The notes below the pieces were generated by a model. The model was not told the origin of the DNA and did not search any database. It worked only from the letters and a program-made list of their open reading frames with translations. Both the position numbers and the translations under genes were made by a program. Below, in pieces: positions 15,854 to 20,593 of a stretch of DNA of 64,000 bases. Where the stretch lies: the NCBI GenBank assembly GCA_019218365.1, contig JAHUUJ010000005.1:62001-126000 (forward strand). Reading direction: 5' to 3'. Position 1 is the first letter of the stretch; every line of letters begins with the position of its first letter. This DNA comes from Actinomycetaceae bacterium TAE3-ERU4 (GTDB lineage: Bacteria > Actinomycetota > Actinomycetes > Actinomycetales > Actinomycetaceae).

Positions 15854-15898
15854 AATAAAGATGTGGTGAGCGGATTTTCCGGTCACCACATCTTTATT
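15854..15898. terminator. Bidirectional terminator between glgB and the CnoX-like gene
   Basis: AATAAAGATGTGGTGA pairs with TCACCACATCTTTATT, a 16-bp perfect stem with a 13-base loop that is itself partly paired. It sits between convergent genes and ends both transcripts. Confidence 0.85.
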
Positions 15899-15904
15899 AC
15901 TTTT

Positions 15905-16786
15905 TCAGAATAAAAGCGTCGCTAGCTTAGAGCGAGTTTCTTTTACCAAAGCATCATCGTTTCCAAGGATTTTAAAATAATCTAAGAGTCGAACGCGTAG
16001 TTCTGTTGCTTCTTCTCCCTCGGCCTCGGCCAATTGTTTCAGGAGGTAGTCAAAGCATTTTTCTTTCTCACCTGAGACGAATAGCGAATCAGCAGTTTCT
16101 AAAGCCTGACTCTGATTCCCCGCGGTTAAGCGATAGGTTAGTTCGGCTTGAGCTAGTTTTTGCTTAGCTATTTGGTCTGTCGGTCTTTTTAGGATTATTT
16201 TTTTCCAGGCGGAAACGGCTTCTTCCCAAAGTCCATTAGTTTCTGCCTCCAGCGCCGGAGTATATTCCTCCGGAAGTTCTTCTGGTGCTGTGGATTCTTC
16301 GACAGGTGGTGCCTCCAGCTGTCCATTTATCCCGGCTTGCTGGCACATTTGCATAATTTGAGCAATTACACTACTAACTTCTGCCTCGGTGGGGCTTCCT
16401 CCGTAGAGAGGAACCGGACGTTCATTTATGAGGGCAAAAGTTACCGGAGTTTCACTGATTTGGAAGGCCGAAAATACTTGCGGAGCGACCTCTTTATAGA
16501 CTTTACCCAGCAAAAGACGACGTTCCATCTTAGATTCAATTTTTTCCAAGATTTCTAGCGCCTGAGCCGAGGTCGGGCAGTTAGATTCAAGAAAAACAAG
16601 AATTACTGGAACTTGCTTTGAAATTTGTGCAAACCTATTGAAATCTGCATCAGTTACTGGCATTGCGCCCAGGCCTGATTCTGCCTTTGAAGAAGGCGAA
16701 GCTTCTTTCTCGCTCCTGGAGGCCAGTTGGGAAAGATCTATTGCACCGTAGGAGGATGGTAAAACGGGTTGAGTTTGTTCGTTCAT
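15905..16786 (-). CDS. CnoX/YbbN-like thioredoxin-fold plus TPR protein with a CxxS motif
   Basis: Protein of about 293 residues with a thioredoxin-like domain (about 40-155) and an alpha-helical TPR-like C-terminus (about 170-290), the layout of the holdase/co-chaperone CnoX (YbbN). Where thioredoxin has CxxC this protein has CPTS (after ESN, about residues 70-73), a monothiol form that cannot make an intramolecular disulfide. The cis-proline region is present (SETPVTFAL). I choose the ATG at 16786 because AGGTG lies nine bases upstream; an in-frame GTG at 16798 overlaps that site. It is the last gene of a three-gene operon with a lipoprotein and a two-TM protein. Confidence 0.8.
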   Translation of the reverse strand: MNEQTQPVLPSSYGAIDLSQLASRSEKEASPSSKAESGLGAMPVTDADFNRFAQISKQVPVILVFLESNCPTSAQALEILEKIESKMERRLLLGKVYKEVAPQVFSAFQISETPVTFALINERPVPLYGGSPTEAEVSSVIAQIMQMCQQAGINGQLEAPPVEESTAPEELPEEYTPALEAETNGLWEEAVSAWKKIILKRPTDQIAKQKLAQAELTYRLTAGNQSQALETADSLFVSGEKEKCFDYLLKQLAEAEGEEATELRVRLLDYFKILGNDDALVKETRSKLATLLF

Positions 16787-16803
16787 CAGATTAGTCACCT
16801 CTA

Positions 16804-17817
16804 TCAGGGATTATGCGGAAGCTGCGACCATGACTTAGCTTCCGCGGAAATTGGTAAGGTTTCTGCGCCTAAGACAGTAATCTTTTTATTCTTCGCGTCC
16901 TGTTTGGGAACTAGGAGAACAACATTCGCAACATAGTGGGTGGCTAGCATGCCATCGGTTTCTTTATTTTCTCCAAGGAAAACACCGACGACTCCAGGAG
17001 CCTTAATTTTCGTTCCTTCTAGCTTTACCCGATAAGTTATCTGATAGTTCAAGGTAGCAAATACTAAAGCCTCATCGGCGGATGTTTCGATACTGGTTAG
17101 AGGTTCTTTGCCAGCTTCAATCTTTAGCTCGGTTGTAACCGCATCTTTCCCACCGCTAAGTTTTTCTCGTAGTTGACTTACATTCTTAGTTACATAGTCT
17201 GCAAAAGGATCGGAATTAAACAAATCTTTAGATTTGCCCTCTCGATTTGTCAAGAAATCTACATAGGCGTTAACGGCATCGCGAGGAGATCGTAGGTAAC
17301 CGGTAGCGGTATCGGGAATTATTTGGGTTCCCGCCTGCAAAGCCGGAGTAGCTGGAACAGTACTTCCGGGGAAGAGCCTTGCCCATTGATTTAGTTTGTA
17401 GTTTTCTAGAGCACTTGCCTGCCTAAACACGGATACCGTAGGGATTTGCCCATCGGTAGTTTGTGAAACATTCACCAGGGAGCGGGGGAACTTTGCAGAT
17501 AGAGAATCGGTCGCCACCTCGTTGCTGAGATTTATAGGAGGAGGAGTCTTTTTCAGTTCCTTTGCTACCTTCTGCTGAGCAATGCGCATTTCTAGTGCAG
17601 AGCCAGATAAACGCTGTGACAGTAAATTCGTGTCATTCTTTTGCGCCGCTTGAGAAAGCACGTTAGTGGTAGAAGTAAGAATCTTTTCTAGTTGTCCTTG
17701 AGTTACATTTGGATAGTTTGCGTTATCGTCAAAAGTAACTGCCGGTAGAGAACTAGAACAGGCACCCAAAGATAGAACCGTGGCGGCCAAAAACAGAACT
17801 TTATTTTGTTTCCTCAT
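16804..17817 (-). CDS. Predicted lipoprotein of unknown function
   Basis: Protein of 337 residues with a type II signal peptide: basic MRKQNK, hydrophobic stretch, then lipobox LGAC with the lipidated Cys at 20. The mature part has no motif I recognise; it is rich in Ser, Thr and Asn and probably lies on the outer face of the membrane. A mid-region (about 150-200) resembles the RDAVNAYVDFL type helix seen in some export-linked substrate domains, but I do not claim homology. Its ATG overlaps the stop of the upstream membrane-protein gene (ATGA), so the two are translationally coupled and probably act together. Confidence 0.75.
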   Translation of the reverse strand: MRKQNKVLFLAATVLSLGACSSSLPAVTFDDNANYPNVTQGQLEKILTSTTNVLSQAAQKNDTNLLSQRLSGSALEMRIAQQKVAKELKKTPPPINLSNEVATDSLSAKFPRSLVNVSQTTDGQIPTVSVFRQASALENYKLNQWARLFPGSTVPATPALQAGTQIIPDTATGYLRSPRDAVNAYVDFLTNREGKSKDLFNSDPFADYVTKNVSQLREKLSGGKDAVTTELKIEAGKEPLTSIETSADEALVFATLNYQITYRVKLEGTKIKAPGVVGVFLGENKETDGMLATHYVANVVLLVPKQDAKNKKITVLGAETLPISAEAKSWSQLPHNP

Positions 17818-19040
17818 GCGGTTTCCTCTCCCGATTCCGCAGTGTGCTTATCTGCTTGTGTTTCTGTAGATGAGAGAGATTCGTTTTCTTCAGATTCTTC
17901 CTTATCTGCTTCGACCTTCATGGATTTCCAGGCTTCTTGCCCGCGTCTACGGCGAAGTATTACCCGAGTAGTACGCCCCTTGGAATCTACGTTGGAAGCT
18001 GCTTTTGCCTGAGCAATTTGTTCTTCTATTCCCTCATTGAGCTGATCAGCAGGAACTACGATGCTGATTGTTTCTTCACTTTCCGAGGTTGTCTCAGCAT
18101 TTACCACCGGAATAGAACCTGTGGAGTAGCGAACTCCTTCAACTTCTACTTCATCCACTCCTAGTTTTCGCGCGGCACGGAGGGCACGGCGCGTGGGAAC
18201 TTGGATTTCTCCGGTTGAAGCATAGATAGTCTGAACTTCCCCAGTAACTAAGGTTCTATCCTCTACCTGTTTAGCTTTATCCCGCGATGATTCATCAGAG
18301 TCCGCATTTTTTTCTTCGCTTGTCTCACTCTTTTTAGCTCCGCTGTTTATTTCCTCGGAAGTGTTGTCAAGCCAGGTCTTTACCGGAGCGGGAATGCGCG
18401 TGAGGAAGGGAGCCGCAGTTGGTCGCTTCATGATTATCAGTAGCGCCAATAATGCCAAAAGGAGCAACAACGCGCCAAATGCCATCAATCCCCACTGAAG
18501 AGTATTTGAAACCCGGTATGGCCAAGTAATAGTCATCTTGGGGGCACTCGAACAATCAGTACAGTATGCCAGTGCAGATAGGGAATCTACGTTTTCCGAC
18601 AAAGTTATTTTTGCAGTTGAGTCTCCGCTAGATTCTTTACTCCAAAGATCGGAAGTATCGAACTGGGAAAGAGGAACTTCGGGGGTAATATTCTTCTTGT
18701 CTGCAACCTGAGTTTCAAATCGAGTCCAGGATTTTAATCCAGTTATCTCTTGAGATTTCTGAGTTGCTGCCCAAGCCGCCACATCATAGGCTCTTCCCAC
18801 TACCAGGTGTGTCTTTTTCCCGGGTTCTCCCTGCGCAACAATCTCTACAGGCTCAGAAAATAGGGGCAAGACTCCCCCACGAGTAAAAATAACCGAAGTA
18901 TTTTTAACCGGCTCTGTAGAGGCCGAGACACTGGTAGCTGGACGCAATATGGTCAGCCCAACTACTCCCGCTAGGACTAGCACAAGGCCGAGGGCTCCAA
19001 CCACTATCGGCCAAAAATAACGAGCAATGGTCTGCTTCAC
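17814..19040 (-). CDS. Two-TM membrane protein with extracytoplasmic CxxC and a charged cytoplasmic tail
   Basis: Unrecognised protein of 408 residues. TM helices lie at about 10-32 and 184-204; between them is an external domain of about 150 residues ending in YCTDC (Cys 160 and 163) just before the second helix. The C-terminal 200 residues are hydrophilic, rich in Glu, Ser and Lys, and probably disordered in the cytoplasm. I choose the GTG at 19040 because AGGAG (19049-19053) lies eight bases upstream and the first helix follows at once; the open frame continues up to a GTG at 19133. First gene of the operon with the lipoprotein and the CnoX-like protein. Confidence 0.72.
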   Translation of the reverse strand: MKQTIARYFWPIVVGALGLVLVLAGVVGLTILRPATSVSASTEPVKNTSVIFTRGGVLPLFSEPVEIVAQGEPGKKTHLVVGRAYDVAAWAATQKSQEITGLKSWTRFETQVADKKNITPEVPLSQFDTSDLWSKESSGDSTAKITLSENVDSLSALAYCTDCSSAPKMTITWPYRVSNTLQWGLMAFGALLLLLALLALLIIMKRPTAAPFLTRIPAPVKTWLDNTSEEINSGAKKSETSEEKNADSDESSRDKAKQVEDRTLVTGEVQTIYASTGEIQVPTRRALRAARKLGVDEVEVEGVRYSTGSIPVVNAETTSESEETISIVVPADQLNEGIEEQIAQAKAASNVDSKGRTTRVILRRRRGQEAWKSMKVEADKEESEENESLSSTETQADKHTAESGEETA

Positions 19041-19264: not shown

Positions 19265-20593
19265 GTGACCGAGGAGCAGGCGGGATTCCCCATAGTAATG
19301 CGCGGCTATGACCGAGTAGCGGTAGACGAGGAGCTAACTGAGCTTCGCTCTACCTTAAATGCCGAACGCACGCAGCGCTCCAACGCCGCAGCACGGATAC
19401 AGGATCTAGAAAATCAGGTTGAAAACCTTAACCGTCAGCTTTCTGAAGGGGAACGTAGCTACAACGGAATCGGGAGCCGAATTGAACAGCTCCTCCATTC
19501 AGCTGAAGAACAGTCCTCGGCCGTCTTAAATAAGGCAAACACCGAAGCTGAGTCTTTGATGGAACGCACGCGTGAAACCACTTCGCGGATGAGCCAGCGT
19601 GCTGAGTCGGAAGCCGCTACCCTGCTCTCGGAAGCACGTCGCGAGGCCGATGAACGCACTTCTCGTGCCGCAACGGAAGCAGAGACTCTTCTTACCAATG
19701 CGCAACACCGTGCAGATGAACTCGTAGCCGCAGCAACCCGTGAGGCTTCTAGTCTCCGCACAGAAGTCAATACGCAGGTAAATGATTTGCGTGCTACAGC
19801 GCAGCGAGAAACCGAACTTATGCGCGCACAAGCAGAAAAAGATTTTGTGGAAATGCGGGTAAAGGCCGAAAAGGAAACCTCGCAGATGCGTTCTGAAGCA
19901 GCTGCAGAAGCTCAGCAGCTTCGTGAATCAGCCCTTACCGAAGCAAATGCCACTCGCGAATCAGCTCAGAAAGAAGCTGAATCATTCTTAGCTAACGCCC
20001 GTAAAGAAGCTGAAAGCATTCTTCGTGAAGCGCGGGCCGCAGCAGAAGCTGCCTCCAGTCAGGTACAGAGCATGCGCCAAGAGGCAGAAACTGAGATTGC
20101 CAGCAAACGAGCCGCTGCTCGCGAGGCAGATGCGCAGGCACACGAACAGGCCCGTACAGAAACCGCCACTATGGTAGCCGCAGCTAAAGCACAGGTCGCA
20201 GAAGCCGAAAAGCACCTGGGAGAAACTCTACAACGTGCTGAGCGTCTACTTTCAGACACCGACGCGGTTGTGCGTCGCCGCCAGGAAGAAGCCCGTCGTA
20301 GCGCCGATGCAACTCTCGTTCAGGCCGAAGCTGAAGCTCAACAGATTCGCGAATCTGCACGTACCGAAGCAGCTAATGAACGTCTCTTGGCACAGCGCAC
20401 TGTAGAAAAGCTAGAGCGTCAGCGTCAAGCGGTTACAACCTACCTTGAAGAAATGCGTGGTGTTTTGGGGACTGCTCCGGGGTTTTCTCCCGAGATAGCC
20501 GCGGCCCAGGCCTCAAGCTCGATTGAATCACGTTCCGAATCAGCTTCACTCTCCCCCACAACGCAGCTATTCGAAGAAGAAGAAAACGAATAA
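19265..20593 (+). CDS. DivIVA-domain long coiled-coil protein (Scy/FilP-like)
   Basis: Protein of 442 residues. The first 40 contain a DivIVA-type membrane-curvature motif (FPIVMRGYDRVAVDEEL); residues about 40-400 are one nearly continuous coiled coil rich in Ala, Glu and Arg with many 11-residue-like repeats; the last 40 are Ser-rich and acidic. Such proteins in actinobacteria act as polar scaffolds or intermediate-filament-like elements in tip growth or septation. The start is GTG with a GAGGAG ribosome site six bases upstream. It is divergent from the unknown operon and ends at a strong bidirectional hairpin. Exact role cannot be told from sequence. Confidence 0.85.
   Translation: MTEEQAGFPIVMRGYDRVAVDEELTELRSTLNAERTQRSNAAARIQDLENQVENLNRQLSEGERSYNGIGSRIEQLLHSAEEQSSAVLNKANTEAESLMERTRETTSRMSQRAESEAATLLSEARREADERTSRAATEAETLLTNAQHRADELVAAATREASSLRTEVNTQVNDLRATAQRETELMRAQAEKDFVEMRVKAEKETSQMRSEAAAEAQQLRESALTEANATRESAQKEAESFLANARKEAESILREARAAAEAASSQVQSMRQEAETEIASKRAAAREADAQAHEQARTETATMVAAAKAQVAEAEKHLGETLQRAERLLSDTDAVVRRRQEEARRSADATLVQAEAEAQQIRESARTEAANERLLAQRTVEKLERQRQAVTTYLEEMRGVLGTAPGFSPEIAAAQASSSIESRSESASLSPTTQLFEEEENE

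Follow-up and report, generated by a model that had tools for sequence, protein, structure and literature searches.

A conserved Actinomycetales operon encoding a membrane protein, a lipoprotein and a CnoX-like thioredoxin-TPR protein

Three described systems are closest to the locus studied here. In GlnH-GlnX-PknG, it is proposed in two reports (PMC6069109; PMC8546545) that a lipoprotein senses amino acids outside the cell, a membrane protein relays the signal, and a kinase bearing tetratricopeptide repeats (TPR) responds inside. CnoX, also known as YbbN, is according to PMC6282202 an SxxC holdase that passes substrates to GroEL and DnaK in Escherichia coli, and works as a reductase in Caulobacter. 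Rv1324 of Mycobacterium tuberculosis carries SxxC, did not reduce insulin, and was detected in the cell envelope upon its expression in M. smegmatis (PMC9927160). Here we analyzed a stretch of 64,000 nucleotides (the window) from Actinomycetaceae bacterium TAE3-ERU4 (contig JAHUUJ010000005.1, positions 62,001 to 126,000), focusing on three co-directional minus-strand genes that encode a membrane protein (A), a lipoprotein (B), and a thioredoxin/TPR protein (C).

Similar to GlnH-GlnX-PknG as described in PMC6069109, the trio is a conserved operon whose products are a lipoprotein, a membrane protein, and a TPR protein of the cytoplasm. Different from that system, no kinase, solute-binding-protein, or 4HB_MCP family was identified by Pfam in the A, B, and C of the window at E-values up to 1, and the TPR protein of the trio is CnoX-like. 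By analogy, the best reading is that the trio may work like GlnH-GlnX-PknG without belonging to it. CnoX is matched over the whole thioredoxin-TPR length of C, which differs from it in having mostly lost the redox cysteines within this order and in being encoded alongside a lipoprotein and a membrane protein in a three-gene operon. The likeness of Rv1324 lies in a thioredoxin-like protein in which SxxC replaces CxxC. Its gene has glgB and nucS as neighbors, so that it may be the orthologue of C, and is not known to have neighbors resembling A or B.

A, B, and C are real genes that form a strongly conserved operon in Actinomycetales, and the three probably work as a unit. Two of the proteins, A and B, reach the cut-off of no database family, yet the three genes are kept together and in sequence across most sampled genomes of the order. 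This conserved unit suggests a core function in the envelope, one that was found named in no paper within the open-access literature searched, where no paper on the A-B-C trio was found either, and it places a chaperedoxin-like protein in a setting where the redox residues are dispensable.

Conservation of the gene order

All three open reading frames (ORFs) were confirmed on the minus strand of the window where the initial annotation had placed them, together with the ATGA overlap of A and B, the CTDC of A, the lipoprotein character of B, the CPTS of C, and the charged A tail of approximately 200 residues. Single-protein searches (E-value 0.001) of 200 genomes at the level of the GTDB family matched A in 192, B in 188, and C in 195 genomes. 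Forty loci were fetched from these genomes, covering 35 of 36 genera, and searched with profiles; A adjoins B in 39 and B adjoins C in 39 of them. In one exception (L112), C lies approximately 5 kb upstream of A, past the DivIVA gene. In the other (L120, 6365-7599 and 8639-9073), A is split over several frames and C is cut short, which may reflect operon decay or sequence errors.

The order was sampled with 149 genomes, 11 of them from the window's own family. Profile searches matched A in 136, B in 135, and C in all 149; in two genomes (G227, G236) the match to C is weak and may represent an ordinary thioredoxin. All three genes are held by 133 genomes, and 128 of these carry A-B-C on one strand; in the remaining five (G213, G232, G239, G273, G316), the matches lie on different contigs, where adjacency cannot be judged. 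The grouping of the three genes, initially seen in a single genome, is not broken up in close relatives. Twenty loci of other families were chosen from the match lists of A and B before C was searched, and both A-B and B-C adjacency hold in 20 of 20; the choice was made partly for a shared A/B open frame, so the A-B count is not independent, and the B-C count is. Among named loci, the unit was identified in Microbacterium (L248) and in a Bifidobacteriaceae assembly (L251). Such a gene arrangement is far beyond chance.

The neighborhood provides a measure of background synteny. C and the convergent glgB lie within 1.5 kb of each other in 27 of 40 family loci and eight of 20 loci of other families, and A and the divergent DivIVA-family gene within 800 bp in 34 of 40 and five of 20; these full denominators include short fetched stretches in which the neighbor was not detected. 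Where both genes were found, the corresponding counts are 27/32 and 8/11 for C-glgB and 34/35 and 5/7 for DivIVA-A, and a DivIVA profile and a single DivIVA sequence detected the same seven of 20 loci of other families. The trio is linked more tightly than its surroundings, though the surroundings are themselves fairly stable. An AI-2E transporter was frequent near A in a loose clustering, but a direct search recovered it in only 4/20 loci and it was dropped.

Beyond the order, 158 genomes of the class were sampled, some members of the order included. B was matched in 27 and A in 44 (E-value 0.001), and C in 156 at an E-value of 1e-40. Some of the A matches are other proteins that have only the outside domain in common with A, and the three that were scanned carry DUF4389. 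In families f26, f33, and f45, four loci with both A and B have C nearby, either in the order C-A-B (L329, L330, L331) or as A-B followed by C approximately 2 kb on (L328). Family f37, presumably Streptomyces-like to judge from its SCO2278-type match, has B-like genes and no match to A. Spread of B on plasmids was rejected, as tblastn found no match to it in the plasmid collection.

The A-B unit and the CnoX-like protein C

A and B occur together. Among the 149 order genomes, 133 have both, three have A only, two have B only, and 11 have neither (Fisher 2e-12, a value that treats related genomes as independent and is uncorrected for relatedness). Four of the 11 double absences fall in genomes with less than 90% completeness or more than 5% contamination (G208, G227, G236, G251) and six in two families (f5, f17), and one more is a genome in 580 contigs (G319). 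Both assemblies with B only are in many pieces (1060 and 700 contigs). In one A-only genome (G216), C starts 1.4 kb after A, leaving the space that B would occupy, and B may be too diverged there for detection.

The two genes are also found fused. Matches to A and B share one open frame in several genomes of families f5, f6, f15, and f19, and a single A+B ORF was verified by sequence in eight of the 20 loci of other families (L191-L198), as well as in the Microbacterium locus L248; outside the order, L327 and L333 are fused too. The fused proteins run from a helix through the outside domain, a second helix, an intervening loop (some tens of residues), and a third hydrophobic stretch, which corresponds to the signal peptide of B, to B itself. 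The lipobox cysteine is kept internally in seven of nine fused ORFs (L191, L192, L193, L196, L197, L198, L248) and missing in two (L194, L195); with such an internal lipobox, a membrane protein would carry the signal peptide of a lipoprotein midway along its chain. In family f6, a second, divergent A-B pair directly follows C, as one ORF in L191 (8846-10519) and as two ORFs in L192 (from approximately 9599 onwards). Fused and split forms thus alternate between and within families, which suggests more than one fusion or split event and is the strongest individual argument for A and B acting jointly. Taken with adjacency and co-occurrence, this makes it very probable that A and B are a functional unit.

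Neither A nor B reaches the cut-off of any Pfam or NCBIfam family. No relative of known structure was accepted by sequence; the best PDB values were 0.0015 over 52 residues for A and 0.36 for B. AlphaFold models were built from three sequences each (mean pLDDT, the predicted local distance difference test, 58.7 for B and 69.4 for A). In these weak models, the C-terminal half of B matches NTF2-like proteins at Z-scores of 5.5-7.2, among them TraM and DotI, represented by their periplasmic domains, and a homologue of VirB8 (Z 6.2-7.2), as well as ketosteroid isomerase and NTF2. The outside domain of A, a stretch of approximately 150 residues in the window protein, matches C-terminal beta-sandwich domains of subtilases and collagenase at 7.3-8.9; a Z below 8 may mean a common arrangement only. 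The outside domain of A would thus be a PPC-like or jelly-roll beta-sandwich.

Two described families come near to B and A. B aligns along the length of the SCO2278 family lipoprotein (NF053531), and 15 of 22 B members match this family at E-values up to 0.01, but the B of the window scores 31 bits against a cut-off of 210 and is not a member, and the B-like genes of family f37 occur where A has no match. For A, the profile matches a domain beside DUF4389 (PF14333) in the three scanned proteins, but the A of the window has no DUF4389 and does not belong to that family. The outside domain of A recurs beside DUF4389 repeats in these larger actinobacterial membrane proteins (L334, L337, L338), and L335, L336, and L340 look similar to these by eye.

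A profile of C matches ybbN (3qou, the E. coli protein) at 7.7e-32 over positions 40-303 and a chaperedoxin (9wcw) at 1.3e-31, both matches spanning the entire thioredoxin-TPR length. An N-terminal thioredoxin fold and C-terminal TPR are present at full length, and the thioredoxin match of the window protein falls under the curated Pfam cut-off. The initial annotation knew of no described system with this composition; C by itself is a recognized kind of protein, given its full-length match to YbbN/CnoX. A redox-active cysteine, either CxxC or SxxC with a second cysteine, was not found in the window protein, which has CPTS only; because this residue was tested and is not conserved, we name C CnoX-like and not a chaperedoxin. 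C is a CnoX-like thioredoxin-TPR protein, and across this order its redox cysteines have mostly disappeared.

The active site of C is variable throughout. Among 40 family proteins, nine have CxxC, 30 have no cysteine, and one, the CPTS protein of the window, has a single cysteine; the monothiol site noted in the initial annotation is thus confined to one protein of this sample. The 20 loci of other families divide into seven with CxxC and 13 with none. A class sample of 71 loci contains 51 with CxxC, 19 with none, and one with a single cysteine, which is the window again (L352); as it combines the 31 best-scoring matches with 40 hand-picked from the rest, holds one gene twice (L404, L413), and includes five genomes of the order, its fractions should not be read as a survey. 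The proline matching the cis-proline of thioredoxin is kept in 129 of 129 C proteins (66 with CxxC and 63 without; L352 and L413 left out). Frequent loss of the cysteines together with retention of this proline indicates that the chemistry is dispensable and that this part of the fold is retained. Dispensable thiol chemistry counts against a simple reductase role of C. Both active-site cysteines are lost in many actinobacterial lineages, also in genomes without A-B matches (such as G339 and L376).

A possible envelope relay and competing explanations

We tentatively favor a reading in which A and B make up a single envelope complex whose cytoplasmic partner is C, in the manner of a relay. A would hold a small beta-sandwich domain outside the membrane, flanked by its two helices, and send a variable, motif-bearing tail into the cytoplasm; in fused forms, no more than a loop of some tens of residues takes the place of this tail. 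B, lipid-anchored and with an NTF2-like C-terminal half, would sit beside the outside domain of A. C would bind a client protein or peptide at the inner face of the A-B complex through its TPR and pseudo-thioredoxin domains, not through thiol chemistry, and the module would report an outside state, most likely that of the envelope or of exported proteins, to this chaperone-like adaptor. We infer the topology of A, the folds of A and B, the contact between C and A, and the signal. The membrane-spanning module proposed in the initial annotation is plausible in outline, its composition and chaperone-like cytoplasmic protein fitting, and its thiol core is wrong.

The coupling of A-B to C, which is read from gene order, is evenly poised: the linkage of A-B to C is tighter than that of the neighbors and recurs as C-A-B, which counts for coupling. 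A possible point of contact is the tail of A. In 38 A proteins, the window included, the tails range from 85 to 701 residues, and three short motifs are found repeatedly: [ST]RRx[LAIM]R in 16 of 38 tails (shuffled mean 0.2), GA[GSET][IV] in 18 (shuffled mean 2.15), and W[RK]x[RLMAEVI]W in 15 (shuffled mean 0.02). This third motif usually lies among the final 30 residues of the protein. These motifs look like docking peptides, for which C, a TPR protein encoded two genes on, would be a natural partner.

Several observations weigh against this reading. The motifs were picked after viewing the same tails, the shuffles ignore common descent, and each motif is present in less than half of the tails. 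As the long tail is absent from fused A-B proteins, docking through it cannot be a general mechanism. Confidence in the fold models is low (pLDDT 58.7 and 69.4), Z-scores reach only 7.2 and 8.9, and Foldseek found no match at an E-value of 0.001 or better for the model of either A or B. One family has its A-B fusion away from C, with none in the fetched stretches L327 and L333 and, in G434, C approximately 107 kb from the fusion. C is matched in 149 of 149 order genomes, also where A-B is missing, and must therefore have a job independent of A-B. Nothing in this sequence analysis points directly to C touching A or B.

These last points lead to the main rival, which we regard as a serious, if somewhat doubtful, possibility: A-B alone would be the envelope complex, and C a conserved neighbor with its own job, an ancestral housekeeping gene near glgB that is a transcriptional passenger of an A-B pair inserted before it. 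Besides the ubiquity of C and the family with A-B apart from it, one locus (L257) has C at 1.3 kb from glgB with no A or B found. A mere passenger would, however, fit poorly with a linkage of A-B to C that exceeds that of the tested neighbors and that recurs in two other families in the different order C-A-B.

Returning to the relay with C as cytoplasmic partner, a more specific form of it appears unlikely as a whole: a core three-part relay of Actinomycetales in which A-B controls a cysteine-free, membrane-coupled CnoX, that is, a pseudo-thioredoxin/TPR chaperone held at the inner face of the membrane, and in which the A-B fusions, with their internal lipobox, are polyproteins that lipoprotein signal peptidase may cut into A and lipoprotein B.

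A role in growth or division together with the divergent DivIVA-family gene, whose DivIVA-like coiled coil would be recruited to an envelope complex by the tail of A, is improbable. It would account for the close DivIVA-A spacing in the family and for the recurring tail motifs, and the plastid division proteins ARC6 and PARC6 are among the first-ranked, non-significant Foldseek matches of B. However, that spacing is found in only five of the 20 loci of other families, with DivIVA detected at all in seven, and the ARC6 match has an E-value of 2.9e-3 and TM-scores of 0.25/0.50 on a weak model.

It is very improbable that the trio serves the alpha-glucan genes glgE and glgB, for instance in glucan sensing or surface assembly, as the frequent proximity of C and glgB might suggest, because C and glgB converge in the window, where a strong hairpin separates them, and share a neighborhood without A-B in L257.

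A thiol relay, in which the CTDC of A outside and the CPTS of C inside would pass electrons or sense oxidation, has both motifs in the window and the resemblance of C to a family with redox members (PMC6282202) in its favor, and is rejected as scarcely credible on conservation: CTDC, the external motif behind the thiol sensor suggested in the initial annotation, occurs in one of 38 other A loci (L092) and is missing in the remaining 37, including two of three from the same genus (L091, L093), 30 of 40 family C proteins have no active-site cysteine, and CPTS is found in the window only. A defense system was rejected, as PADLOC gave no match for the three window proteins.

Locus and neighboring sequence

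The features of the locus are listed in Table 1. For C, the methionine at residue 4 of the aligned frame is nearly invariant, and ATG 16786 is therefore the likely start.

Table 1. Features of the A-B-C locus and its borders in the window
Feature	Position	Strand	Remarks
Gene A, membrane protein, 408 aa	17814..19040	-	GTG start; longer frame extends to 19133
A architecture: helix, outside domain, helix, long charged cytoplasmic tail	17814..19040	-	predicted topology
A first transmembrane helix, approximately residues 9-33	18942..19016	-	model helix 2-30; hydropathy of homologues
A CTDC, residues 160-163	18552..18563	-	not conserved; sequence, homologue loci
A second transmembrane helix, approximately residues 181-205	18426..18500	-	model helix 180-205
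A tail motif PTRRALRAARK...TGSIPVV, residues 282-313	18102..18197	-	similar stretches in some other A tails
Gene B, lipoprotein, 337 aa	16804..17817	-	ATGA overlap with A; weak lipo_SCO2278 match
B lipobox LGAC, Cys20	17758..17769	-	Cys invariant among 22 aligned B proteins
B C-terminal half, NTF2-like in predicted model	16807..17328	-	low-confidence model
Gene C, thioredoxin-TPR protein, CnoX/YbbN-like	15905..16786	-	ATG start; alternative GTG start at 16798
C CPTS at thioredoxin active-site position	16568..16579	-	in no other protein of the family sample
C TPR_20 domain	15908..16162	-	Pfam, 4.4e-13
Hairpin, probably terminator, between convergent C and glgB	15854..15898	.	20 pairs, fold z -9.25; very stable
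Divergent DivIVA-family coiled-coil gene	19265..20593	+	next gene upstream of A

The hairpin after C was missed by a consensus terminator scan, which found seven sites against 4.4 expected. No promoter-like site was identified in the 224-bp gap before A, the stretch containing three sites against a shuffled mean of 3.7. Downstream of the trio lie glgB and glgE, and past the DivIVA gene are genes for an alpha/beta hydrolase and a small unassigned protein, followed by nagA, nucS, and a DUF2550 gene; glgB, glgE, and nagA are names assigned from the sequence. Elsewhere in the window, an ORF on the minus strand (1019-1804) encodes cysteine pairs and a CPWC motif between helices, a pattern that suggests a putative VKOR-type disulfide enzyme.

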